Below, piece by piece: positions 1,324 through 11,891 of a stretch of DNA of 52,958 nt. Each line of letters opens with the position of its first letter. Position 1 is the stretch's first letter. Below the pieces are notes generated by a model. It was not told the origin of the DNA. It did no database searches and saw nothing but the letters and a program-made list of their open reading frames with translations. The position numbers and the translations under genes are program-made. The DNA is from a virus: positions 1 to 52,958 of the IMG/VR virus record IMGVR_UViG_3300023199_000212; one strand, 5' to 3'.

Positions 1324-1541
1324 AGTTCATTGCCCATGCGTCTTTGCGCATGCGCGCGAACGGGCCCGCGCACCCCGTGCTGATCTACCTAAACCCGGAC
1401 GGGCGCACCCTCACGATTCGGCGCGCGATCGATCGGCGCGGGAACGTGTCAGACAAGGGAGAGATTCTCGGCCATGCGTTCCTGGAGCATGGCGCGACGT
1501 TGACGTTGACGGCGCCCGATGGCGCCAGAAAGGAAACCTAG
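1320..1541 (+). CDS. Hypothetical protein, 73 aa
   Basis: A small basic beta-rich protein, overlapping the GP88-like gene by the ATGA-type junction at 1320. No motif recognised. It belongs by codon use and spacing to the 117-1763 group and probably shares its transcript. Confidence 0.55.
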   Translation: MKFIAHASLRMRANGPAHPVLIYLNPDGRTLTIRRAIDRRGNVSDKGEILGHAFLEHGATLTLTAPDGARKET

Positions 1542-1544
1542 AGC

Positions 1545-1763
1545 ATGCGATTCATCGACAAGGCGGATCCCGCCCACCTTGAGGGTTGCGCCCGGGCGGA
1601 ATGGGCGCGGTTCTCGGAAGACGAAAGGGCCGTTGTCCGCTTCGGCATGATCCCGGCCGATGCCGCGCGCCGTCTCGAAGCTGAGACGGGCGCCACGGCG
1701 CGGGAGATTGCCCTTGCGCTCTTCAAGGCGGCGCGCGACGCGGGCGCGCCGCTTGTCGTGTAG
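1545..1763 (+). CDS. Hypothetical protein, 72 aa
   Basis: A 72-residue helical protein starting at ATG 1545, three bases after the previous stop, with weak AGG/GAG bases upstream (gaaaccTAGAGC). No family recognised. It is the last gene before the long non-coding control region. The whole 117-1763 group is compositionally distinct from the rest of the phage. Confidence 0.5.
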   Translation: MRFIDKADPAHLEGCARAEWARFSEDERAVVRFGMIPADAARRLEAETGATAREIALALFKAARDAGAPLVV

Positions 1764-1860
1764 GGCGCCCGATCAAAGGCGCCCGCTAGGTGCGGCGCCC
1801 GTGCCCGGGAGGGTACGGGCGCCGCTTTCGTTTGTGCGGGCCCTACACGGCCGCAGGAAC

Positions 1861-2044
1861 GGCGCGGCCGCTCGCCCGGGCCCGCAGGGGTGCGCGCCCT
1901 AGGGCGCCCGTGGCGGGCCCGTACGCGCCCTGAGCGGGCGCCCTGTACAGGGGTGCGGTGCCTTGCGCCCTGCTACGGGCGCGTAGGGCGCCCTGAGCGG
2001 GGCGCCAGTATGGCGCGGCCGCTCGCCCGGGCCCGCAGGGGTGC
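1861..2044. repeat. 33-bp perfect direct repeat pair
   Basis: The 33 bases at 1861-1893 and at 2012-2044 are identical (both begin GGCGCGGCCGCTCGCCCGGG). Between them are further shorter repeats such as GCGCCCTGAGCGGG. The stretch is packed with GGCGCC, GGGCCC and GCGGCCGC palindromes. Confidence 0.85.
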
Positions 2045-2075
2045 CGCGCGGGCGCCGTGACGGTTCCATGACAAT

Positions 2076-2278
2076 GGGACGGATACGGGACGGATAAGCT
2101 GGCCGGGCTAAACCCTTGCGGAATAGCGGGTTACGGCGGATCGGGACGGATGGGACGGGTTCCGCCCTACTGTGGTATAACGTCTTGATACCACCCCCCT
2201 GTATAGGGTTCATTATTTAATCCTAGGGTGTATAGGTACTCTCCATATACCTTGCCTTTTATCCGTCCTATCCGTCCC
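2076..2278. repeat. GGGACGGAT iteron-like repeats
   Basis: Perfect GGGACGGAT copies lie at 2076, 2087 and 2143, with a one-mismatch copy at 2152. Inverted copies lie at 2261 (one mismatch) and 2270 (perfect). Paired copies are 11, 9 and 9 bp apart. Between the direct and inverted groups is an AT-rich patch with an inverted repeat GTGGTAT (2172-2178) / ATACCAC (2188-2194). Confidence 0.75.
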
Positions 2279-2433
2279 AATTGCTATAAGCCTAGGCTTG
2301 GCCTAGACTTAGGACGGCCGGGTTATCTGTCCCGAACCTGTCCCGAAGTGTCCCGCGGGCCCTATCGTCTCAGATTGAGAATCGACGTAACCCTAGGCGC
2401 TGCCGGGCTTTAGGCCGATCCCCCACCTGGCGC

Positions 2434-2450
2434 TGTACACAACGTGTACA
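2434..2450. promoter_or_regulatory. TGTACAC-N3-GTGTACA palindrome (operator-like)
   Basis: A perfect 7-bp inverted repeat with a 3-bp spacer. Related TGTACA half-sites occur in other regulatory gaps of this window (around 5761, 13910, 51981, 52415 and 52760), so it may be a binding site for a shared regulator. No regulator gene is identified. Confidence 0.5.
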
Positions 2451-2490
2451 CTTCGCGATTTTCTTAGTTTATTCCCGCTCGCTCGATCGA

Positions 2491-2648
2491 CGTAACCCCC
2501 TGTGGCAGCCGTGGTTACGGGCGCACAGTGAAATGAACGGAGTTGGAGCAACGTAACCCCTTGCTAGAGCGGTACTTAGGGCGGACGGAAGGGCGCGTTG
2601 CGCGGGCGGGGTGGGCGGTCGTAAGCCGTTGCGGCGCAAGGGGTTACG
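2491..2648. repeat. CGTAACC boxes in inverted pairs
   Basis: CGTAACC (2491-2497) pairs with GGTTACG (2513-2519). A 13-bp perfect inverted repeat pairs CGTAACCCCTTGC (2552-2564) with GCAAGGGGTTACG (2636-2648). A further direct copy is at 2383-2393. The arrangement is iteron-like. Confidence 0.7.
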
Positions 2649-2753
2649 GGGGTGCCCGTGCCTACGTGGCGCCTTGCACTAAGATCAGTGAGTGGGGTCG
2701 CGCAGCGCGAATTGAAAATTTCCCCGGGGCAGAAAAACCCGGGCGCAGGAAAT

Positions 2754-2813
2754 GCGCTCTGGGGACTTGTTTAATCGGACGAGGTCGGCCGCGGAAAAGC
2801 GCTCTGGGGACTT
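2754..2813. repeat. 15-bp direct repeat, 45 bp apart
   Basis: GCGCTCTGGGGACTT occurs at 2754-2768 and 2799-2813, each followed by a similar TTTA-A/T-TCG stretch. It marks the right edge of the control region, close to where phage-like composition begins. Confidence 0.75.
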
Positions 2814-2890
2814 CTTTATTCGACCAGATCGAGACCAGGGTGCGAGGAAAGACCGGCGGGGGCCAAGAGTTGGAGCCTCGTGACGAGGAG

Positions 2891-3085
2891 CTAGGCGCCC
2901 AGCATTCGGCGCGCGACTTCTTCGGCCTCTTGCTGTTCGTCCGGATCCAGATCCGGCACATCCTTGAACTCCGACTCATCTATCTCGCACTTGCCGTCAG
3001 TGTACAGCTCGATGATGATCCACCGGCGTTGCTCGCGAGATAGCTGGTTGAATTTCCGCATACAGTCGCTATCGACAGGCCCCAT
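2891..3085 (-). CDS. Hypothetical small acidic protein, 64 aa
   Basis: A minus-strand ORF with a natural-looking composition: a basic helical N-terminal half (QLSREQRRW) and an acidic C-terminal half rich in Asp/Glu. An internal Met at 3061 is an equally plausible start, and neither has a strong Shine-Dalgarno. It overlaps, in another frame, the degraded ORF beginning at 3318. Function unknown. Confidence 0.45.
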   Translation of the reverse strand: MGPVDSDCMRKFNQLSREQRRWIIIELYTDGKCEIDESEFKDVPDLDPDEQQEAEEVARRMLGA

Positions 3086-3139
3086 GCTGCTCTTGAGTTG
3101 AACTCGGAGGCGATACCGCCCGGCCGTTGAGGCGGGACC

Positions 3140-3318
3140 GCGAGGGAACAGCGCACCGAGGGCATGCGCGCAGCTCGCCGAGGAGGAACGACGGAATAGC
3201 TGTCGAGGTCGCTCCCGCGGATCCGGTGGCAGCAGTCGAGCGTGAGGCGAGCGACGCCCCCCTCGCGCTCGAAGTAGCCCGCGATCCAGCGGAGGTCCTC
3301 CCCAGTGGCCCTCTTCAC
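3140..3318 (-). pseudogene. Fragment resembling the start of a LAGLIDADG endonuclease
   Basis: From GTG 3318 the minus strand encodes a first 16 residues ending RWIAGYFEREGG, which fits the first LAGLIDADG helix pattern (hydrophobic, AG, then acidic-x-EG). After about 35 residues the frame loses protein-like character and no second motif follows. I read it as a remnant of a homing-type gene. It could also be chance similarity, since the motif is short. An intact LAGLIDADG gene is present at 36876. Confidence 0.3.
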
Positions 3319-3425
3319 GAGGGCCCTAGTCTACCAGCAAGGCCGCGGCCCGGCGCCCGGTCGCTGACCGCCCCTCCTAGCCAGCACATAGCCCCTAAAC
3401 GGCGAGGTTGGCAAGTCGGGCTAGA

Positions 3426-3445
3426 CTGGGTGTGGAGACACCCAG
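3426..3445 (+). promoter_or_regulatory. Hairpin with Shine-Dalgarno in the loop
   Basis: CTGGGTGT-GGAG-ACACCCAG forms a perfect 8-bp stem whose 4-base loop is the Shine-Dalgarno GGAG, one base before ATG 3447. The ribosome site would be displayed in a tight loop. A parallel structure precedes the portal gene at 13878-13893. Confidence 0.65.
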
Positions 3446-3446
3446 C

Positions 3447-3743
3447 ATGCGCATCAGCGAGTCGATCTACCCGAACGCCATCGCCGACGCGGCCCTCGTG
3501 AGCCCGGCGAGCGGGAAGCGCCTGACGATCTTCCGCATCATCGCCACGAACAAGGACGGCGCGGACATGCAGATCTACCGGAACGTGCGCGGCGTCAACA
3601 TCATCAACCTCGAGACCTCCAAGGGCGGCGTCTTCGAGTTCGGCGAGAGGGGCCTGCGGCTCGAGACCGACGAGGCGCTCACGTTCACCGGCGGCCTCGT
3701 GAGCGTCAACACGATCGTGACCGTCTACTACGGGGAGCGGTAG
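3447..3743 (+). CDS. Small beta-rich virion-type protein, paralogue of the next gene's N-terminal domain
   Basis: A 98-residue protein. The start is ATG 3447, set by the GGAG loop hairpin just upstream; an earlier TTG at 3408 lies before that hairpin and is less likely. The pattern (LVSPASGKRLTIFRI, then LETSKGGVFEFG, then FTGGLVSVNTIVTVYYGE) matches residues 16-100 of the following protein position by position, so this is a stand-alone copy of that domain. A role in the tail or capsid surface is inferred from context only. It is one base from the next start. Confidence 0.65.
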   Translation: MRISESIYPNAIADAALVSPASGKRLTIFRIIATNKDGADMQIYRNVRGVNIINLETSKGGVFEFGERGLRLETDEALTFTGGLVSVNTIVTVYYGER

Positions 3744-3744
3744 G

Positions 3745-4806
3745 GTGAAGCACTTCGAAGCCACCCTCTCCGGCGCTCTCACGGACGAGCTTCTTGTCGC
3801 GCCCGCGATGCCCGGCCGCCGCGTCAAGATCCACCGGATCTCCGTCGGCGCCGACGTTGCCGTGGACATCAAGGTCCACCTCGCCGCCGACGACCCGCAG
3901 GGCGGGCGCCTGCTCAACGTCGAGTCGAGCAACGGCGTCGAGCTGTACCTCGACGGCCAGGTCGACTTCGACGAGCCCGTCTACTTCTCGGGCGGCGCGG
4001 TCGGTGAGAACGTCACGATCGTCATCGACTACGAGCACACGGGCCGGAACGAGACCGGTTCGGACGGGAAGCTCGGGATCCTCGTCCCCTGGTACAACCA
4101 CCCGAACCACTACGACCCTCCCAACTACAAGTGGCCGAACATCGCGCAGGAGCGCGACGAGCACACGCCGATCACGGCGATCATCAACCCCTCGAGCGGC
4201 CCGGGCGTCGGCGGCCCGAACGCGGACTACGTCGTGGGGGCGGACCTCTTCCTGCAGAGCGGCGTCAAGATGCTGGGGTACGTCCTCACGAACTACGGCG
4301 GGCGCCTCCTCGCGGACGTGAAGGCCGACATCGACGAGTGGGCGGACAACTGGACGAAGTACGTGACGGGGATCTTCTTCTACGAGATCCCCGACTCCTC
4401 GATCTTCGACCTCGCGAAGATGAACTACTACCGCGAGGTGGTCGAGTACGCGCGCTCCAAGATCCCCGGGGGCGAGATCGTCATCAACCCCGGCACGGAC
4501 CTCGACGACCCGCTCGCGGGTCTCGGGGACATCGTCTCGTCGTTCGAGGACACCGAGGCCAGCTGGACGGTGAACAAGGCGATCGCGACGGCGCGGAAGA
4601 ACACGCACCTCGCTCTCATCCACACGGTCACGACCGAGACCGGCCGCGAGGGGATGCGAAACCTCGTGCAGCAGGCCTTCGACGAGGGCTACCGGTGGGT
4701 GTACTTCACGGATGACGCGCTGCCGAACCCGTGGGACGCCCTCCCGACGGACTGGAGTTCCCTCGCCGAGTGGGTGAGGGAGGCGAATCTCGGAGCGCGG
4801 TCGTGA
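3745..4806 (+). CDS. Spherulin-4 domain protein, probable virion-associated glycosidase or binding protein
   Basis: A 353-residue protein starting at GTG 3745 (GGGGAG upstream). Residues 1-100 are a beta-rich domain shared with the previous gene. Residues about 110-345 match the spherulin-4 family (GH135/Sph3-like TIM barrel): the opening LGILVPWYNHP, then TAIINPSSGPG, GVKMLGYVLTNYGG with LADVKADID, and GIFFYEIP, all in the family's order. Members cut or bind amino-sugar polysaccharides, so this may act on a capsule or exopolysaccharide during adsorption; that role is inference. It lies between the two other surface-protein genes. Confidence 0.75.
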   Translation: MKHFEATLSGALTDELLVAPAMPGRRVKIHRISVGADVAVDIKVHLAADDPQGGRLLNVESSNGVELYLDGQVDFDEPVYFSGGAVGENVTIVIDYEHTGRNETGSDGKLGILVPWYNHPNHYDPPNYKWPNIAQERDEHTPITAIINPSSGPGVGGPNADYVVGADLFLQSGVKMLGYVLTNYGGRLLADVKADIDEWADNWTKYVTGIFFYEIPDSSIFDLAKMNYYREVVEYARSKIPGGEIVINPGTDLDDPLAGLGDIVSSFEDTEASWTVNKAIATARKNTHLALIHTVTTETGREGMRNLVQQAFDEGYRWVYFTDDALPNPWDALPTDWSSLAEWVREANLGARS

Positions 4807-5702
4807 CTACCCGCCAGCAGGGGCGGCGTTCCAGGCTGATCAGGGACGAGCGGCTTGGAGGCGGCCTCTTCGTGCCGTTCGTGCCGGGAGGCGATGGCCT
4901 GCCCGCGCCGGACATGTGGTACGACCCGCAGTGGATCGTCGACACCTACGGCACGACGACGGCGCTCGACGGCGACGACCTCGCTGCAGCTGGCAAGATG
5001 TTCGCGGTCGGTCAGCGATGGAAGTCCCTGGGCTCGAAGGACAACTGGATCGACCTCCACATCACGGGCGGCGGCGCCACGACCATCCAGCACGCCGCGG
5101 GACCGAACGGCCTGCCGTACGTCTTCTTCGACGGCGTCACTAACCCCGGTGAGTGGATGCACCCGAACCGCGACGGCAACGAGCCTGCCGCGACGGAGGG
5201 CGACTTCCACCCCAGCGCGTTCACGTATTTCGTGCTCGCGGCTCGAGCGACCACTGAAACGACCGGATGGCGCTCTGTCATGGGCACGCGCGACATTCCG
5301 AACAACCGGGGCTTCTCGCTCTTCTTCCGCGAGAGCGGAGGTGCGCGCAACCTCCAATTCGTCTTCGGCGACGGATCTATCATCAGCGGAGCCACCGCGG
5401 GCACCTGGGCGGCGGGGGAGTGGATGATCCTCGCAATCATGCACGACGGCAGCGAGGGCAAGCTGTGGAAGAACACCCTCTTCGCCTCGCCAATCGGGAG
5501 CGCCGTCCACGGCTACGCGCCGCGGAACACCGGCTCGATCGACCACCAGGGGACGTTCCAGCTCGGGCAGGACGGGGGCGAGCAGACGCGCGCCGAGACG
5601 CTGGTGGCAGACCTGCGCATGTACAACCGCGTCCTGAGCGAGGCTGAGTTCGACTCGATCATGAGCGATCTCTCGGCTAAGTCGGGTATCGCCGTAACCT
5701 AG
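4803..5702 (+). CDS. LamG/concanavalin-like lectin domain protein
   Basis: A 299-residue protein. GTG 4803 is chosen because it overlaps the previous stop by 4 bases and has CGGAG seven bases upstream; an upstream GTG would extend it into the previous gene. Residues about 70-290 look like a laminin-G/concanavalin jelly roll: FTYFVLAAR, the GFSLFFRESGG and LQFVFGDG strands, LADLRMYNRVLSEAEF near the end. Such domains bind carbohydrate in phage fibre or appendage proteins. With its two neighbours it probably forms a receptor-recognition or adhesin unit, placed away from the main tail block. Confidence 0.7.
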   Translation: MTTRQQGRRSRLIRDERLGGGLFVPFVPGGDGLPAPDMWYDPQWIVDTYGTTTALDGDDLAAAGKMFAVGQRWKSLGSKDNWIDLHITGGGATTIQHAAGPNGLPYVFFDGVTNPGEWMHPNRDGNEPAATEGDFHPSAFTYFVLAARATTETTGWRSVMGTRDIPNNRGFSLFFRESGGARNLQFVFGDGSIISGATAGTWAAGEWMILAIMHDGSEGKLWKNTLFASPIGSAVHGYAPRNTGSIDHQGTFQLGQDGGEQTRAETLVADLRMYNRVLSEAEFDSIMSDLSAKSGIAVT

Positions 5703-5725
5703 ACAAAAAAGCTAATCAGCCCGAC

Positions 5726-5753
5726 TTGACCTGTCCCCCCTACGGGGTATAGT
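5726..5753 (+). promoter_or_regulatory. Sigma70-like promoter (TTGACC-16-TATAGT)
   Basis: TTGACC at 5726-5731 and TATAGT at 5748-5753 are 16 bp apart. The -10 lies inside a small inverted repeat GGGTA-TAG-TACCC. A GCACCTAG leader box follows at 5779. It probably drives the small-gene cluster from 5913. Confidence 0.65.
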
Positions 5754-5912
5754 ACCCATGTACACGACACCTTGACAAGCACCTAGAGAGCTAGCCGAAG
5801 CAGGGAGCACGGCCGCGCGGCGCACCGCACCCTGACCCGCACCGACCGCACAGACAGGCTCCGCTGGTCGGCTCCCTGCCGAGGCATCCTCTCGCCAAAC
5901 GCACCTTTTGGC
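5754..5912 (+). promoter_or_regulatory. 5' leader of the small-gene cluster with two GCACCT boxes and a long inverted repeat
   Basis: No gene is seen here. GCAGGGAGC (5800-5808) and GCTCCCTGC (5871-5879) form a perfect 9-bp inverted repeat around 62 bases. GCACCTAG occurs at 5779 and GCACCTTTTGG at 5901, the second ending at the ATG 5913. This could be a structured, regulated leader. Confidence 0.45.
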
Positions 5913-6119
5913 ATGGACTGGCACCTGGCAGCATTGACCCTACTCGGCATCCTTCTCGTAGCGCACCGGCGAATCTCCGGCTTCTTGGTGCAGGCGCTCG
6001 CCAGCATCGGCTGGCTGCTCTACGGGATCGACACCGACCAGAGCGGGATCGCCTCCCTCAACTGCGCCCTGCTGCTCGCCAACGTCTACGCCTTCATCAC
6101 CTGGAGGAGAGCAGCATGA
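5913..6119 (+). CDS. Small membrane protein with two TM segments
   Basis: A 68-residue protein with hydrophobic segments at about residues 5-16, 22-36 and 45-60 separated by Arg-rich or polar turns, ending WRRAA. The start ATG 5913 follows the GCACCTTTTGG leader box. It could be a holin-like or small transporter-like protein; the sequence does not decide. It overlaps the next gene by ATGA. Confidence 0.55.
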   Translation: MDWHLAALTLLGILLVAHRRISGFLVQALASIGWLLYGIDTDQSGIASLNCALLLANVYAFITWRRAA

Positions 6120-6337
6120 CGCGCACCCGGATCCCCGTCCTCTTCTACCCCAACCCCAAGGACTGCGTCGGCCTGCGCCGCGAGCGGCTCCCCTTCGAGA
6201 AGCTCTGCGAGAAGGAGCTGCGCATCCGGCGCGCGATGAGCCGCCGCGTCTCCACCAAGCCCAAGGCCATCCGCCGCGCGCTCCGCAACGACATCAAGCG
6301 AATGATCGAGAGGCGGAAGGAGGCCGCCAGTGCGTGA
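6116..6337 (+). CDS. Hypothetical basic protein, 73 aa
   Basis: A strongly basic, helical 73-residue protein (many Arg/Lys in the C-terminal half). ATG 6116 overlaps the previous stop and is preceded by GGAGAGCAGC. The charge suggests nucleic-acid contact, but there is no recognised family. It overlaps the next GTG start. Confidence 0.55.
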   Translation: MTRTRIPVLFYPNPKDCVGLRRERLPFEKLCEKELRIRRAMSRRVSTKPKAIRRALRNDIKRMIERRKEAASA

Positions 6338-6491
6338 GCGCAAGTGGAAGTACTGGCGGATCTCCAAGTCCGCGGTCGAGAGCCGCGAGACGGCCGTCCG
6401 AGCGGCGCCTCGAGGCTTCAAGTACCACACGAGCACGCTCGGGGAGCACGTCTTCCGCCGCCCGCTGATCCCCAACGGGGAGCGGCCGTGA
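6330..6491 (+). CDS. Hypothetical basic protein, 53 aa
   Basis: A short frame from GTG 6330 (inside the end of the previous gene, with GGAGG upstream) to TGA 6489-6491. It encodes a basic protein beginning MRERKWKYWR and ending LIPNGERP. Its place between two genes with overlapping starts and stops, at the same coupled spacing, supports it being real. Function unknown. Confidence 0.5.
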   Translation: MRERKWKYWRISKSAVESRETAVRAAPRGFKYHTSTLGEHVFRRPLIPNGERP

Positions 6492-6757
6492 TCGGGGACC
6501 GGCGCTCCGGCCGAGACCGCCGCGCCACAGTCAGCGAGGAGACCGACGCGCTCTACAACCGCGCGATCTACGCGGAGGCCGTCGCAGAGTTGTACAAGCG
6601 CCGCGCCCGCGACAACCGCCGCGGGATGATCGACGCGGTCACCACCGGCGCGACCGTCCTTCGCGACGTAGAGCGCGAAGCCCGGCTCTGGCGCACGGCG
6701 TTCCTTGGCGCGGTGCTCGTCTTCACGGCAGTCACCGCTGCGGGGATGCTGCTGTGA
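6488..6757 (+). CDS. Small tail-anchored membrane protein, 89 aa
   Basis: From GTG 6488, overlapping the previous TGA and with GGGGAG upstream. It encodes a charged, helical, probably cytoplasmic N-terminal 65 residues and one hydrophobic segment at the extreme C-terminus (AFLGAVLVFTAVTAAGMLL). A single C-terminal anchor is common in phage accessory lysis or inhibitor proteins, but the role is not shown. Confidence 0.55.
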   Translation: MIGDRRSGRDRRATVSEETDALYNRAIYAEAVAELYKRRARDNRRGMIDAVTTGATVLRDVEREARLWRTAFLGAVLVFTAVTAAGMLL

Positions 6758-6924
6758 TCGCCCGCAGCGGTCGCGGCACCCGCGGCTTCAACGCCTTCTG
6801 TCACGGTCGCTGCGGACGTGGCGGTTCGTGCGAAACGACCAAGCACCTGCTGGTCATCTTGGGGGGACGGCGATACCTGTACTGCACGACGTGCGGTAGG
6901 CGCAAGGAACTCCTTGACAGCTAA
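6754..6924 (+). CDS. Zinc-ribbon-like small protein, 56 aa
   Basis: From GTG 6754, overlapping the previous TGA, to TAA 6922-6924. It has clustered cysteines: FCHGRCGRGGSC in the first half and YCTTCGRRKE near the end, so two metal-binding knuckles that could form a zinc ribbon. Its 3' end contains the -35 box of the next promoter. Function unknown. Confidence 0.5.
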   Translation: MIARSGRGTRGFNAFCHGRCGRGGSCETTKHLLVILGGRRYLYCTTCGRRKELLDS

Positions 6925-6942
6925 GCTATACAGTGTTAATAT
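6914..6942 (+). promoter_or_regulatory. Strong sigma70-like promoter (TTGACA-17-TAATAT)
   Basis: TTGACA at 6914-6919 and TAATAT at 6937-6942 with 17-bp spacing, the closest match to consensus in the window. The transcript would start only a few bases before ATG 6952, leaving room for just GCAGGTGAA, a weak Shine-Dalgarno. It lies over the end of the preceding gene. Confidence 0.75.
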
Positions 6943-6951
6943 GCAGGTGAA

Positions 6952-7158
6952 ATGAGCGTGGTCGAGTACTGGAAGGCGATGCCGACGATCGAGCAGCACC
7001 AGCGACAAGGGCTGCGCCAGATCGACGACGCGCTTGTTCGGCTCGCCGCGAGATACAAGCGGTGCGACTGCCTCGAGTGCAGCATCGCAGACAGCACCTA
7101 CCGCTTCCTGCAGGGGATGGCCTGCGAGATCGAACGCCAACTGGAGAGGTACTCATGA
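6952..7158 (+). CDS. Hypothetical protein, 68 aa
   Basis: A helical 68-residue protein with a CDCLEC cysteine pair near residue 42. It starts at ATG 6952 directly behind the TTGACA/TAATAT promoter and ends in an ATGA overlap with the next gene. No family recognised. Confidence 0.6.
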   Translation: MSVVEYWKAMPTIEQHQRQGLRQIDDALVRLAARYKRCDCLECSIADSTYRFLQGMACEIERQLERYS

Positions 7159-7667
7159 ACATAGACTTCAAGGTTCGCGGCCGCGAGGACGGCAGCTACG
7201 CACTGCTCGCCGCCAAGCCTCCCGAGAACGGTCGGTCGCGCCGGAAGTGGGAGGAGGTCGGGTACGTCCAGCGCGGCGAGGGAGAGAGCGCCGATTCCGG
7301 CCGCAGCCGCAAGGGCTGGAGCTACTACTTCCTCGGCGACGTGAGCCTCGTCTACAAGAGCAAGCGCGATGCGCTCGAGGCGCTCCAGAAGGTCGTCCTC
7401 GAGATGCTCTCCAGCGAGCCCGAGGGGGAGCCCGAGCAGGGCGGTCCCGAGCGGCCAGAGGACGAGCCGTGGGAGGGGGAGACCAGGGAGGCCGGTCCCT
7501 TCCCGTTCGACATCAACCGGCCGGTGTCCCACAAGCTGGGCTACCACGACGGCGAGATCACGAGCGTCGAGCGCATGGAGGGGGACTGGCGCATCAGCGC
7601 CAGGTTCCCGCGGCACAAGTGCTCGCTACGCGGTGGCGTCGAGGACTTCGCGCAGGAGGCGGCGTGA
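7155..7667 (+). CDS. Hypothetical protein with acidic linker, 170 aa
   Basis: A 170-residue protein starting at ATG 7155 (GGAGAGG upstream). Residues 1-75 are a mixed beta/alpha domain with a WSYYFLGDVS segment, followed by a Glu/Pro-rich disordered linker (about 80-120) and a small C-terminal domain with KLGYHDGEI and FPRHKCSLRGG. I do not recognise it. It is coupled to both neighbours by overlapping starts. Confidence 0.55.
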   Translation: MNIDFKVRGREDGSYALLAAKPPENGRSRRKWEEVGYVQRGEGESADSGRSRKGWSYYFLGDVSLVYKSKRDALEALQKVVLEMLSSEPEGEPEQGGPERPEDEPWEGETREAGPFPFDINRPVSHKLGYHDGEITSVERMEGDWRISARFPRHKCSLRGGVEDFAQEAA

Positions 7668-7885
7668 GCCGATTCTGCTGCCCCATGCGGGCCCGGTTCA
7701 TCGTCGGGCCCGTGGGCATCCGCCTCGACCAGCCGGAGCCTGTCGATGTGGCCGACTTCATCCTCGACTGGCGGGCGGACACGCCCGGCGCCAAGCCGGT
7801 GATCGCCATTCGGTTCTGCCCGTTCTGCGGCAGGGAGATCCACCACAAGGAGCGCAGGGACATCGTCGAGCCGGGAGCGCCATGA
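7664..7885 (+). CDS. Small zinc-finger-like protein, 73 aa
   Basis: From GTG 7664 overlapping the previous TGA. It carries FCCP near the N-terminus and FCPFCGREI near the C-terminus, a layout typical of a single zinc knuckle. It probably mediates nucleic-acid or protein contacts. No family named. It overlaps the next ATG. Confidence 0.5.
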   Translation: MSRFCCPMRARFIVGPVGIRLDQPEPVDVADFILDWRADTPGAKPVIAIRFCPFCGREIHHKERRDIVEPGAP

Positions 7886-8067
7886 CGAGCCCGTACCTCC
7901 ATCTGGCCTTGGAGCATTGGCAGCTCGCCGAGGAGCTGACCAGTCCCCACCTACGGGACTTCCACTGCTACGTCTACCTCGCGCTCGCGGCAGAGGGCGA
8001 GGATGAGGTCGCTCTGTGGCACGACTGCTGGACGAACGGGTGGGTTTGTTCGGTCTTGCCTCGCTAG
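7882..8067 (+). CDS. Hypothetical protein, 61 aa
   Basis: A helical 61-residue protein starting at ATG 7882 with GGGAG upstream. Its stop (8065-8067) lies in the inverted repeat CTCGCTA-GTCG-TAGCGAG (8060-8077) and overlaps the stop of the KTSC remnant on the other strand. The C-terminal residues may have been altered when the restriction-modification cassette arrived; that is inference. Confidence 0.5.
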   Translation: MTSPYLHLALEHWQLAEELTSPHLRDFHCYVYLALAAEGEDEVALWHDCWTNGWVCSVLPR

Positions 8068-8205
8068 TCGTAGCGAGTCTCATACTCGAACGTGCGTGCA
8101 ATCTCCTGATTGAAGTAGCGCCCCTTCGACTCTGCCAGCTTCATGCGGTAGTAGACAGCAGGCGGCACGGCTCGATAGACGTAGGTCGCGGTGCGCGTCC
8201 TCTCC
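8064..8205 (-). pseudogene. C-terminal half of a KTSC-domain gene (remnant)
   Basis: The minus strand carries an open frame ending at TAG 8066-8064 that reads YVYRAVPPAVYYRMKLAESK then GRYFNQEIARTFEYETRYD. This matches the C-terminal half of the KTSC domain (VPxxVYxxL-x-A-x-SKGRYFNxxI). Upstream, the same DNA in another frame is vsr, so the N-terminal half of the KTSC domain is missing. It appears to be a native gene cut by the insertion or deletion that placed the truncated vsr here. Confidence 0.6.
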
Positions 8206-8419
8206 GGCAGGAGTGCCCGTGCCAAAAGCAACCTCGCACCTGGACGGCGACCGGCCGAAGAACGATGTCGGGCGTCCCTGGTAGATCTGAACGGTGAGTG
8301 TCGAACAGGAGCCCGCGTGAGAGGAGCGCAGCCTGAAGCGCCAACTCGGGTGATGTGTCTCGAGTGCGTACGGCGCGCATCACCTCAGATCGCTTCGCTC
8401 TGCTGAATACATCCCCCAT
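8141..8419 (-). pseudogene. vsr: Vsr-type very-short-patch-repair endonuclease, truncated at the C-terminus
   Basis: 92 residues, of which about the first 75 follow Vsr: VFSRAKRSEVMRAVRTRDTS, DLPGTPDIVL with Asp51, and CFWHGHSCRRGR with His67 and His69, the catalytic region. Vsr proteins are normally about 140-150 residues. Here the frame switches to unrelated residues and stops, and another frame continues into a KTSC gene end. Vsr nicks at T:G mismatches created by deamination of 5-methylcytosine, and usually accompanies a C5 methylase, as it does here. The start ATG 8419 overlaps the endonuclease stop (TGATG). Activity of the shortened protein is doubtful. Confidence 0.8.
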
Positions 8420-9315
8420 CAGTTCCGTCCTGGATAGTTCGCGTTCTTGTATGGGATAAACCTCTCATCGAGAAACACCACGTCCATCGCGTAGAAGGCG
8501 TCCGATCTGAAGACCGCTGTCTTTCCGGAATCGCCTGGGGTGTTGCTGATGGAAAAGTCGTCGGGGCCGACATTCCCCACTCGGATCTCCCAGATCCAGA
8601 TCGTGTCGCCCCGTTTCTCTCGATCGAACTGTCCAGCGCGGTCCCCGAGCACGTACCGTACGGTCAGATGGGGGCCAGGCTTGGGCAGGTGCCCCTTCGG
8701 CTTATTCTTCGCAAGAGCGACCTTGATCTCCAGCTCACACGCCGGATTCTTCAGCGGGACAAGATCCGGGTACTTGTGTGGCCCGTTCCTTTGATACAGA
8801 CCATCAGAGGCCTCCGCGATCGCGCCACCGAAGATGTTCCCGAGCATTGCCGATAGATTCGCCAGTTCGACGGTCTCTGCCAGCGGCGAACTCTCCGCCG
8901 CCAGCAACTGTGCGTCGATCAAGTCCAGCGTCCCATAGGTCTTCTCGATCGCCGCGCCCAGCATTTCGAGGGTGAGCGCAGTGGCCTCTTGTAGACGGTC
9001 CCCCTTCCGCAGCATGCCATCAGCGGGACGGCGTTCTACCCAGTCCGGAGGGACGAGAAGCGGGGCGGCCTTCCCCTCCGGGGTGGATCCCCCTACCTCG
9101 GCCAAGAGCGACCCCAAGGGCATGTCCAGGGCCCATGCGATACTCAGGGCGACTTCAAGAGAGGGGTGCCGTGAGCCCTTCTCCAGGAGGCCCACATGGC
9201 TCCGATCGATGCCCGCTCGTACAGCCAGCTCTTCCTGCGTAAGCCCCTGGCGCATCCGCTCTTCCGTCAGCCGCCGGACGATGGCGGCGACGATACCGGC
9301 TGCCGGGGTGTCCAT
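8419..9315 (-). CDS. Type II restriction endonuclease with N-terminal XRE helix-turn-helix
   Basis: A 298-residue protein from ATG 9315. Residues 8-75 are an XRE-type HTH (LTQEELAVRAGIDRSHVGLLEKG), probably an autoregulator that also controls the cassette. Residues about 150-298 carry a PD-(D/E)XK nuclease signature: PD at 183-184, then E196-I-K198, followed by strands TIWIWEIRV. Linkage to a C5 methyltransferase (divergent, 60 bp away) and vsr identifies it as the restriction subunit. The recognition sequence cannot be read from the protein. The fused HTH replaces the separate controller protein of many systems. Confidence 0.8.
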   Translation of the reverse strand: MDTPAAGIVAAIVRRLTEERMRQGLTQEELAVRAGIDRSHVGLLEKGSRHPSLEVALSIAWALDMPLGSLLAEVGGSTPEGKAAPLLVPPDWVERRPADGMLRKGDRLQEATALTLEMLGAAIEKTYGTLDLIDAQLLAAESSPLAETVELANLSAMLGNIFGGAIAEASDGLYQRNGPHKYPDLVPLKNPACELEIKVALAKNKPKGHLPKPGPHLTVRYVLGDRAGQFDREKRGDTIWIWEIRVGNVGPDDFSISNTPGDSGKTAVFRSDAFYAMDVVFLDERFIPYKNANYPGRN

Positions 9316-9334
9316 AGGACGGCAGCCTAGGGGG

Positions 9335-9363
9335 TTGACGGCGGGTGTCGAGGAGACTATTGT
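9335..9363 (+). promoter_or_regulatory. Promoter for the methyltransferase (TTGACG-17-TATTGT)
   Basis: TTGACG at 9335-9340 and TATTGT at 9358-9363, 17 bp apart, in the 59-bp divergent gap between endonuclease and methylase. The transcript would begin within a few bases of ATG 9375, so it may be nearly leaderless. The endonuclease HTH is a candidate regulator of this gap. Confidence 0.55.
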
Positions 9364-9374
9364 CCCCACCGGAT

Positions 9375-10535
9375 ATGCGCGAGACGAAGATCCTGGATCT
9401 GTTCTGCGGCACTGGCGGCTTCTCGAAGGGCTTCGAGGACTCAACCGAGCACGGCTACCAGGTAGTACTCGGCGTCGATGTCAGGCGCGACTGCCTCGAC
9501 ACCTTCGCAGCCAATCACTCCTCTGCACTCGCCTTGTGCCAGGATGTCCGATCACTCCCTTGGAGGAAGATGCGCGAGGACCTCGGGCTGCGACGCGGTG
9601 AGTTGGGTGTCGCAATTGGTGGTCCGCCGTGCCAAGGATTCTCGAGCATTCGTCCTCACCGCTCTACTAACAACAACGACCCCCGAAACCAGCTGTTCCG
9701 ATCGTTCGTAGCCTGCGTCGACGAGTTTCGCCCGCCTGTCTTCGTGATGGAGAACGTCGTCGGGTTGGCGACTCACGGTGGCGGTGCTGACATAGAGGGA
9801 ATCGCGCACTCGTTCGAGGCAATCGGATATGCCACTGACTGGAGAATCCTGAACGCCGCCCACTTTGGGGTACCTCAAAGGCGCGAGCGTCTCGTGATGA
9901 TTGGCGTTGAGGGTGGGGGTGAGATTCCGTGGCCGGAGCCGACGCACGAATCCGATCATCCAACGATCGGATTTCGGGAGAGGCATCGGCTCCTGCGCCC
10001 TGAGACACTGCCGCTCTTTTCGAACGGCTCCGAGCTAGAACCCGCCGTGACGGTCATGGACGCTATCGGCGATCTGCCGAACATTGAAGCAGGCCAGGAG
10101 ACCACTGTCTACGATCGCCCGCCGAGCACAAAGTACCAGCGGGCTCGTCGGCGCCGCTGCAAGGTCCTTACTTGGCATTCGTCTACTCGTCATACAGACA
10201 GGATGCTCCAGATCATTCGACACAGCGGTCGGAACATCAACAGCATTCCCGAGCATCTCATCACCAGCGGATTCAGCTCGTGCTACTCTCGGCTGGATGG
10301 TGATGAGCCGTCCGTGACCATCACCGTCAACTTCGTGCATCCAGCCTCGAATCGGTGCATCCACCCGATTGCTGACCGAGCCTTGACTCCTCGCGAGGGA
10401 GCGAGACTTCAGTCCTTCAACGACAGTTTCCGGTTCGTCGGTACTAGGACGCAGATCGTGAAACAGATCGGCAATGCGGTACCACCGCTACTTGGTACTG
10501 CAGTAGCGAGAGCAGTGGCACGCGTCCTCGCATGA
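9375..10535 (+). CDS. dcm: DNA (cytosine-5-)-methyltransferase of a type II R-M system
   Basis: A 386-residue protein from ATG 9375. All main C5 methylase motifs are present in order: motif I ILDLFCGTGGF (6-16), motif IV GGPPCQGFS with catalytic Cys86, motif VI ENV (126-128), motif VIII QRRERLVMIG, the target-recognition region about 220-310, motif IX LTPREGARLQSF and motif X QIGNAVPP. It transfers a methyl group from S-adenosylmethionine to cytosine in the cassette's recognition site, protecting DNA from the divergent endonuclease. Codon use is less G+C-extreme than in phage neighbours, consistent with transfer. The gene symbol denotes the family only. Confidence 0.93.
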   Translation: MRETKILDLFCGTGGFSKGFEDSTEHGYQVVLGVDVRRDCLDTFAANHSSALALCQDVRSLPWRKMREDLGLRRGELGVAIGGPPCQGFSSIRPHRSTNNNDPRNQLFRSFVACVDEFRPPVFVMENVVGLATHGGGADIEGIAHSFEAIGYATDWRILNAAHFGVPQRRERLVMIGVEGGGEIPWPEPTHESDHPTIGFRERHRLLRPETLPLFSNGSELEPAVTVMDAIGDLPNIEAGQETTVYDRPPSTKYQRARRRRCKVLTWHSSTRHTDRMLQIIRHSGRNINSIPEHLITSGFSSCYSRLDGDEPSVTITVNFVHPASNRCIHPIADRALTPREGARLQSFNDSFRFVGTRTQIVKQIGNAVPPLLGTAVARAVARVLA

Positions 10536-10548
10536 TGCTCACCCCATC

Positions 10549-10745
10549 GAGCTGATCAGGTCGCAGACCAGCTCGCGGAAGCGGCCGAGCGTGACTCGGG
10601 CGTTGCGGCCGACACCTCGATCGAAGTGCTTCCTAGACGGGGCGCTCTTGCCCTGTCCAGCTCCGTCCTGTTCCTTCCCGCCCTGTCCAGCTCCGTCCCG
10701 CTCTGTCCAGCCGACAACGTCAAGATCGGCTAACTCGCCGATCTG
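10549..10745 (-). pseudogene. 3' remnant of an unknown gene, with tandem repeat
   Basis: On the minus strand a frame without any start codon runs to TGA 10551-10549. It encodes two copies of a DGAGQG-K/G unit and then a natural-looking end: KHFDRGVGRNARVTLGRF followed by RELVCDLISSMG. At DNA level the repeat is CTGTCCAGCTCCGTCC, seen twice in full and once in part (10650-10710). It sits just beyond the methylase stop, so it looks like a phage gene whose 5' part was lost when the cassette inserted. Nothing else is seen in this gap. Confidence 0.4.
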
Positions 10746-10759
10746 TATAACCCGCGGCC

Positions 10760-11002
10760 ATGGGCGAAGAGAAGACGAAAACGTGTCGCCGCTGCGGAGA
10801 GAAAAGGGCGACCCGCGAGTTCCGCGCGTTCAGCGTCCGCAGCGGCTGGGAGTACCTCGGACCGGGCAAGTACAGGCCGAAGTACATGGGCCCCTACCTG
10901 CGCTCGTGGTGCAGGGACTGCGAGCGTGAGTACTCGAAGTCGTGGCGAGAGAGGCACCCCGGCTACCACGCGCAGAAGGCTCGAGAGTACCGGGCGATGT
11001 AG
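10760..11002 (+). CDS. Zinc-finger (HNH/endonuclease VII-like) small protein
   Basis: An 80-residue protein with CRRCGEKRATREF at residues 9-21 and WCRDCEREYSKSWRERHP in the second half: two CxxC knuckles followed by an Arg-rich helix. This is the zinc-binding half commonly found in phage HNH and recombination endonuclease VII proteins, but the catalytic His/Asn part is not visible, so it may be only the DNA-binding unit. The start ATG 10760 has no strong Shine-Dalgarno. Confidence 0.6.
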   Translation: MGEEKTKTCRRCGEKRATREFRAFSVRSGWEYLGPGKYRPKYMGPYLRSWCRDCEREYSKSWRERHPGYHAQKAREYRAM

Positions 11003-11014
11003 CGCCCCAGCACC

Positions 11015-11593
11015 TCAACCGGCCCGGCGTTGGCGTCGCCTGCGCAGTTCGGCCGCACGGCGCCGGGCCCTCTGCTGGATGTCACGCCGCGCCTGGGCGG
11101 CCTGGCCGCGGTGCTGCGTAGCCCACCACGCCATCCCGACGGCGTCCATCAGGTGCGCCTTCATGCGCTGCGAGTTGATCATCGAGCAGTCGAGGTCCTC
11201 GCGCAGCTGCCGGTGGTGCGCCGCCTTGCTCCGGTTTCCCTTCCACTCGTGCGCGGTGGGGCACATGAACCGGGCGTGGGGGAACGCGCGCATGAGCGCG
11301 CCGAGCGCTACGCCGCCGGTGACGCTGACTCGGTTGAGGCCGGTGAGGCCCTCGCACCCGAGCGGCGTCTGGGGGTAGACCTTCATGGCCTCGACGACGA
11401 CGATCGCCGGTTCGTCGAGTTTCTGCAACGCCGGCGCGAGGCTCACGGCCACCTGGCGGGCCGTCTCGATCACCGCGGCGTCATCGACGAGTTGCCTGCT
11501 CACCGTCGCCTGCCACGCGAACACGACCTCACCGCCCCGCTGAGCGGCCACGGCGAGCGTGTGCGTGTCGGGATCGCATCCAACGGTGAGCAC
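11015..11593 (-). CDS. RuvC-like Holliday-junction resolvase (RNase H fold)
   Basis: 192 residues from GTG 11593 (GCAGG five bases upstream); ATG 11608 is an alternative. The N-terminal strand VLTVGCDPDTHTLAV carries the first acidic residue Asp7, IVVVEAMKVY carries Glu68, and HLMDAVGMAWW carries Asp150, matching the spacing of RuvC-type catalytic acids. A very Arg-rich C-terminal tail may bind DNA. It would resolve branched DNA before packaging. It converges with nothing on its strand but is followed by the zinc-finger gene on the other strand. Confidence 0.7.
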   Translation of the reverse strand: MLTVGCDPDTHTLAVAAQRGGEVVFAWQATVSRQLVDDAAVIETARQVAVSLAPALQKLDEPAIVVVEAMKVYPQTPLGCEGLTGLNRVSVTGGVALGALMRAFPHARFMCPTAHEWKGNRSKAAHHRQLREDLDCSMINSQRMKAHLMDAVGMAWWATQHRGQAAQARRDIQQRARRRAAELRRRRQRRAG

Positions 11594-11624
11594 TCTACCT
11601 GCTATCATATCGTGTAGAGGCGGC

Positions 11625-11891
11625 ATGTCCACCACCGAGATCTACAACCGCATGAACGAGATCGAGAAGAAGGTCGAGCGCCTCGTGCTGCTGAACGAGC
11701 AGGCGCTCGCTCACCTAGAGCGCCACGAGCAGCATCTCAGCGGCGACCCCGCGAGCGGACAGCCGGGTATCGTGGTGAAGCTCGATCGCGTGGAGCAGTG
11801 GAAGGCGCGCCACACCAAGCTCATGTGGATCCTCCTCGGCGCGGTGTGCGGTGGCCTGGTCGAGCGCGTCTGGACGCTGATGCTGGGCTAG
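11625..11891 (+). CDS. Coiled-coil protein with C-terminal TM anchor (XhlA-like)
   Basis: 88 residues from ATG 11625 (AGAGG upstream, TATCAT at about 11604 as a possible -10). Residues 1-65 form a charged heptad-like helix (IYNRMNEIEKKVERLVLL...), then KLMWILLGAVCGGLVERVW is a membrane segment. This layout is typical of XhlA-like haemolysin or holin accessory proteins found near lysis genes, but no holin or endolysin is adjacent. Its stop overlaps the end of the convergent gene. Confidence 0.5.
   Translation: MSTTEIYNRMNEIEKKVERLVLLNEQALAHLERHEQHLSGDPASGQPGIVVKLDRVEQWKARHTKLMWILLGAVCGGLVERVWTLMLG

Follow-up and report, generated by a model that had tools for sequence, protein, structure and literature searches.

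Results

The window analyzed here is the whole of a virus record, a metagenomic contig of 52,958 bases, and it carries a complete, divergent Type II restriction-modification (R-M) pair at positions 8419-10535. The plus-strand gene (9375-10535) encodes a complete C5-cytosine DNA methyltransferase of 386 amino acids (PF00145 positions 2-322 of 324, E=1.4e-57), in which the motifs PPC, ENV, QRRER, PREGARLQ and QIGNAVPP are intact and the intervening region is highly conserved, as judged against 10 homologues. The minus-strand gene (8419-9315) encodes a 298-amino acid fusion of a helix-turn-helix (HTH) domain at residues ~10-80 (HTH_3, E=1.7e-11) with a PD-(D/E)XK nuclease at residues ~105-298. 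Alignment of 10 homologues shows invariant nuclease columns at NGPHK-PD (177-184), E196, K198 and a GDSGKT block, giving a catalytic site of the form PD184...E196-x-K198, that is, PD-x11-ExK. The frame is unbroken over its 298 codons and all of the family-invariant columns are retained. Both proteins had been recognized in the initial annotation, as an HTH-fused PD-(D/E)XK endonuclease and a complete C5 methylase, and both identifications hold. The two genes are also adjacent to one another in L006-L014 and L016, the related loci that we compared. With its catalytic motifs intact, this Type II R-M pair is probably functional.

No model for the endonuclease family was found when the nuclease part was compared with Pfam and NCBIfam, and fold searches with the whole protein and with the nuclease domain gave no match at E<=0.001. 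The best fold match to the predicted nuclease domain (mean pLDDT 85.9) is NaeI (E=1.4e-3, TM 0.51, 11% identity), followed by matches that include EcoRV, BglI, DpnI and SfiI, and 26 of the 26 top nuclease-domain fold matches are Type II restriction enzymes. Weak similarity (E about 9e-5) to a protein annotated as R.SnaBI was detected within one locus. We rejected SnaBI as a name for the family, because it rests on the annotation in that one record.

By sequence, the best PDB matches of the HTH are C.AhdI (E=8.5e-8), the Csp231I C protein and C.BclI, and PADLOC assigns it to Control_protein (5.6e-10). In addition, the top fold matches of the whole-protein model include C.BclI, C.Esp1396I and C.AhdI. 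The HTH is therefore best read as a controller (C) protein fused to the endonuclease. A fused controller with an operator of its own, which the initial annotation missed, would be the key to the timing of the system. In five homologous loci (L007, L008, L010, L012 and L014), C and endonuclease are separate genes that overlap or adjoin in the order C-R, the arrangement from which such a fusion arises, and the methylase is convergent, with an HTH of its own where tested. The window and L016 encode controller and endonuclease as a single protein, with a divergent methylase that, unlike that of the convergent relatives, has no N-terminal HTH. Separate, fused and methylase-linked control are thus all found within one endonuclease family. 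The endonuclease of L009 is fused and yet its methylase is convergent, and so the fusion may have arisen more than once. The endonuclease tree places the window, L016 and a degenerate Phycisphaerales copy (L011) in one clade (100/100), and the methylase tree likewise unites the window and L016 (100/100).

The locus most like that in the window is L016, on the Psychrobacter sp. plasmid pA15BP4 (NZ_MN657034.1; WP_181716916.1, WP_181716917.1), where a likewise fused endonuclease (51% identity) is divergent from a C5 methylase (57% identity). It differs in being plasmid-borne and without vsr, and is annotated merely as an HTH regulator and a methylase. The start codons of the two genes in the window are 59 bp apart, and a 37-bp block at 9335-9371 is common to this interval and the divergent promoter region of L016. 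The gapless local alignment of the block scores 42.5, compared with a best score of 28.5 among 4218 other pieces of the window, and none of 2000 shuffles equalled it. Contained within the block at 9352-9367 is a C-box-like operator, GGAGACTATTGTCCCC (GACnATAGTC), for which the same element in L016 is GGAGACTATAGTCTCG; the operator core reads GACAATAGTC on the minus strand of the window and GACTATAGTC in L016. A classic C-box, ATAGTCCGTrGACT, lies a few dozen bases upstream of the separate C genes in the five loci with a C-R order. Promoters of the C.PvuII type usually carry two C-boxes; the window has one clear C-box, and symmetry is only weak over the other half of the conserved block.

Candidate promoters can be placed on both sides of the operator. 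For the methylase, TTGACG-N17-TATTGT (9335-9363, plus strand) leaves the ATG ~11 nt past the -10, with a nearly absent leader. It is the only sigma-70-like site in a scan of 7800-11100, but shuffled sequence gives 0.7 such sites on average, so that this call is weak alone. For the C-endonuclease, TCGACA-N16-TAGGCT (9324-9351, minus strand), read by consensus and below the threshold of the scan, leaves the ATG ~8 nt past the -10. With start codons ~8-11 bases past the -10, both messages would be nearly leaderless. The C-box overlaps the candidate methylase -10 and sits upstream of the candidate endonuclease -35, a placement by which one bound dimer could switch one gene on and hold the other down. 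C-regulated systems typically have boxes of the form GACT-tat-AGTC and transcripts without leaders (PMC4824078), and the controller C.Esp1396I acts through a single operator to repress the methylase of its system as well (PMC4041747).

Downstream of the endonuclease lies a vsr fragment (8141-8419, minus strand) whose start shares one base with the stop of the endonuclease. It matches TIGR00632 over positions 1-81 of 119 with 74.1 bits, below the cut-off of 97.85, and residues 2-79 of 155 in PDB 1cw0, which confirms the earlier description of a truncated gene. A full-length match to Vsr in Pfam is misleading, as that model has only 74 positions. Vsr homology extends from 8419 to about 8197 and is followed by 14-18 unrelated codons, and two residues immediately ahead of the conserved GCFWHGHSC block are missing from the fragment as well. 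A start-less C-terminal half of a KTSC gene follows on the same strand at 8064-8192 (PF13619 positions 24-58 of 58 at 8088-8192, E=3e-10). These 35 of 58 positions are in a different frame from vsr, as had been noted initially, and the record has no other KTSC match. The N-terminal KTSC half was absent from the other side of the cassette and from the whole record, although at 23 residues a diverged copy of it is short enough to escape the model. The same position in L011, a few bases after the endonuclease, is taken by a full-length vsr (TIGR00632, 137 bits), which makes vsr an old member of the operon. The left junction, which the ends of the two homologies place at 8189-8200, is explained by a single deletion that took the 3' part of vsr together with the 5' part of a same-strand KTSC gene; vsr would have been cut by that one event and joined out of frame to the KTSC half. 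The frame that continues vsr ends in an ATGA (8141-8144) that overlaps a Met codon inside the KTSC frame. If translation reinitiated there, a ~26-residue peptide could result, although the overlap is probably a coincidence. The L011 copy is itself collapsed (L011:4753-5798), with the end of the methylase (81% identity) joined to the C-terminal part of the endonuclease, both starts deleted and vsr intact.

On the right flank, the initial annotation had placed a start-less remnant of a second broken gene ending at 10549. The open minus-strand frame covers 10769-10542 and its stop is in fact at 10541-10539, three bases beyond the methylase stop. In this GC-rich genome, 41% of random 76-codon minus-strand stretches are open, and the frame had no match in PHROG families or phage records. 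As its openness is no better than chance and it has no homologue, we do not count it as the scar of a gene. Thus, from what had been presented as a record of insertion and deletion, one deletion junction stands, between vsr and KTSC, and an insertion into KTSC with a second scar is not supported, the missing half of KTSC not having been found in the record. Short direct repeats (GCCCTGTCCAGCTCCGTCC and variants) occupy 10650-10709, in the interval that separates the methylase from the gene after it, and make up part of the open frame. A perfect inverted repeat, AGATCGGC-taactc-GCCGATCT, is present at 10723-10744, upstream of a small plus-strand gene at 10760, and is a possible operator. Genes at 10760-11635 show weak likeness to an endonuclease VII/HNH fragment (phrog_2340, 3.8e-6) and also to a Holliday junction resolvase (phrog_1770, 0.0036).

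The record is a real tailed-phage genome. It has a major capsid gene (Phage_cap_E, E=6.5e-56), a portal related at 43-64% to portals of other phages, a terminase in common with those portal relatives, and genes for DNA polymerase A and thymidylate kinase. Neither a tyrosine integrase nor a serine recombinase was detected in the record, which makes a lytic lifestyle likely, as judged only from the absent integrase and resolvase in a record that is possibly incomplete. Several 6-base palindromes are strongly avoided over the entire genome (1-52958), with GCCGGC seen once where 45 were expected, and GAGCTC, GACGTC and CACGTG not at all, against 34, 30 and 19 expected. AGCGCT, TCCGGA, GTGCAC and TGGCCA are avoided as well, and the non-palindromic 6-mers of the window did not show the same avoidance. 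This pattern points to hosts that carry several Type II systems. Reading the target site of the R-M pair from it was considered and rejected: several unrelated palindromes are avoided, so that the signal is that of host systems.

The vsr, endonuclease and methylase genes have a third-position GC of 0.63-0.75, compared with 0.84-0.96 for most phage genes that were measured, which indicates that the cassette is foreign. The single lower phage value in this comparison had been calculated in a wrong frame. The six most avoided palindromes are absent from the cassette, where 6.0-6.5 would be expected from its composition. Therefore, either the cassette has endured the same restriction pressure or its source host had it. 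Of the avoided sites left over in the genome, 3 of 21 fall in the cassette, none of them of the six strongest types. A very recent arrival was considered on such site counts and is unsupported, with 0 of the six strongest palindromes against ~6 expected.

The initial annotation had proposed looking for an empty site by comparing the flanks with related phages. Searches with the portal, the resolvase-like gene, the 7.1-7.7-kb gene and the KTSC tail, and megablast of the first 25 kb, found no phage with joined flanks, because no close phage relative turned up. In the two portal relatives (L017 and L018), the terminase region adjoins the portal block in place of the cassette region. No long direct repeats bracket the cassette, and no tRNA or other RNA marks of insertion were found. 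Pattern scans of 2.9 million viral contigs returned just one other contig with the endonuclease, L006 (IMGVR_UViG_3300045996_000340), in scans that need exact short peptides and that distant copies would escape. L006 is a T7-like phage contig that, as in the window, encodes the endonuclease (42% identity) and a C5 methylase (52% identity) together with vsr. It differs in that no HTH was found on the endonuclease, the methylase carries an HTH, the genes are convergent, and vsr is full-length and on the other strand, whereas that of the window is cut. L006 belongs to another clade and groups with other genomes in the trees, indicating a separate acquisition. Its positions 1339-8126 hold a T7-type RNA polymerase (E=1.3e-107), the endonuclease, the HTH-methylase and the full vsr.

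Discussion

Taken from the gene parts and the operator, the locus is likely to be a complete, probably functional, controller-regulated Type II R-M system acquired by a tailed phage, in which controller and endonuclease form one polypeptide that is divergent from a C5 methylase. We infer its activity, timing, targets and direction of regulation as follows. When the phage genome enters, the methylase would be made at once from its own promoter and would mark the genome, and the C-endonuclease would start low. The HTH of the fusion would bind the C-box between the genes and recruit RNA polymerase to its own promoter; on the same C-box it would also cover the methylase -10, so that less methylase is made. 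Cutting would rise late, once the phage DNA is protected, and its targets would be unmethylated DNA, namely that of competing phages and that of the host where the host lacks the mark. The vsr gene would once have been part of the same operon, until it was inactivated by the deletion, which left it joined to half of a KTSC gene in another frame.

Whether the phage gains from this arrangement is a separate matter. It seems to us doubtful, on present grounds, that a lytic phage runs the R-M system as an infection programme, with methylase first and the fused C-endonuclease turned late against host DNA and superinfecting phages. Chlorella viruses use R-M enzymes in a manner comparable to such a programme, and if it were true, the T7-like contig would provide another case, independent of the first. 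It is similarly unlikely that only the methylase matters, giving protection from host restriction, and that the endonuclease, silent or dead, is carried along and heading for loss, as has already befallen vsr. The broken vsr would agree with this, as would the strong restriction pressure evident from the palindrome counts given above and the fact that solitary methylases are far commoner in phages than complete systems (PMC4176335), but the endonuclease has kept an intact 298-codon frame with every family-invariant column, and its operator is conserved. That this one phage recently picked up a host R-M cassette by chance, unselected and near-neutral, would account for third-position GC below that of most of the phage, for the broken vsr/KTSC at the cassette edge and for the fact that no related phage was found with the cassette at the same place. 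Against it, the six most strongly avoided palindromes do not occur in the cassette, and a relative was gained separately by a T7-like phage contig, and we give this explanation too a low probability. Finally, it is very improbable that the cassette was inserted into the KTSC gene and also broke another gene near 10.55 kb, so that two scars remained, since half a KTSC domain does lie at the left edge but its N-terminal half is nowhere in the record, the right-hand frame is not above chance and has no homologue, and a single deletion explains the left junction.

Under the favored reading of a controller-regulated system acquired by a phage, the parts are of known kinds, the carrier is unusual, and the endonuclease family is a new one for the fusion. 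Complete R-M systems are described as nearly absent from phages outside prophages, with 9 in 831 phage genomes (PMC4176335). C-endonuclease fusions have already been published for one endonuclease family, the PvuII orthologues, and CR.NsoJS138I, studied by Liang and Blumenthal, works as both endonuclease and C protein (PMC3850674). Those fusions resemble the window in having an N-terminal controller HTH on a Type IIP endonuclease, a C-box upstream of the fusion and, in most, a divergent methylase. The window differs from them in its endonuclease family, with a fold nearest NaeI/EcoRV, its C5 methylase and its phage carrier. It would thus be the second endonuclease family with a C fusion, and one that puts an R-M system in two lytic-looking phages. 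This makes testable the question of whether a lytic phage gains from a timed endonuclease or from the methylase alone.

The Esp1396I and AhdI systems resemble the window in their C-protein HTH, operators of the GACT..AGTC type and near-leaderless genes, but their C is a separate small protein and their C/R promoter has two operators. Streptococcus phage phi-SsuHCJ31_comEC (MN270268.1) also carries an R-M region with a relative of the window endonuclease. That relative, however, is frameshifted and split over two frames, the intact endonuclease annotated as R.SnaBI is only distantly similar, and the methylase is of another group (21%). In this Streptococcus suis phage, the frameshifted relative adjoins the intact R.SnaBI-annotated gene (L015:3911-5281).
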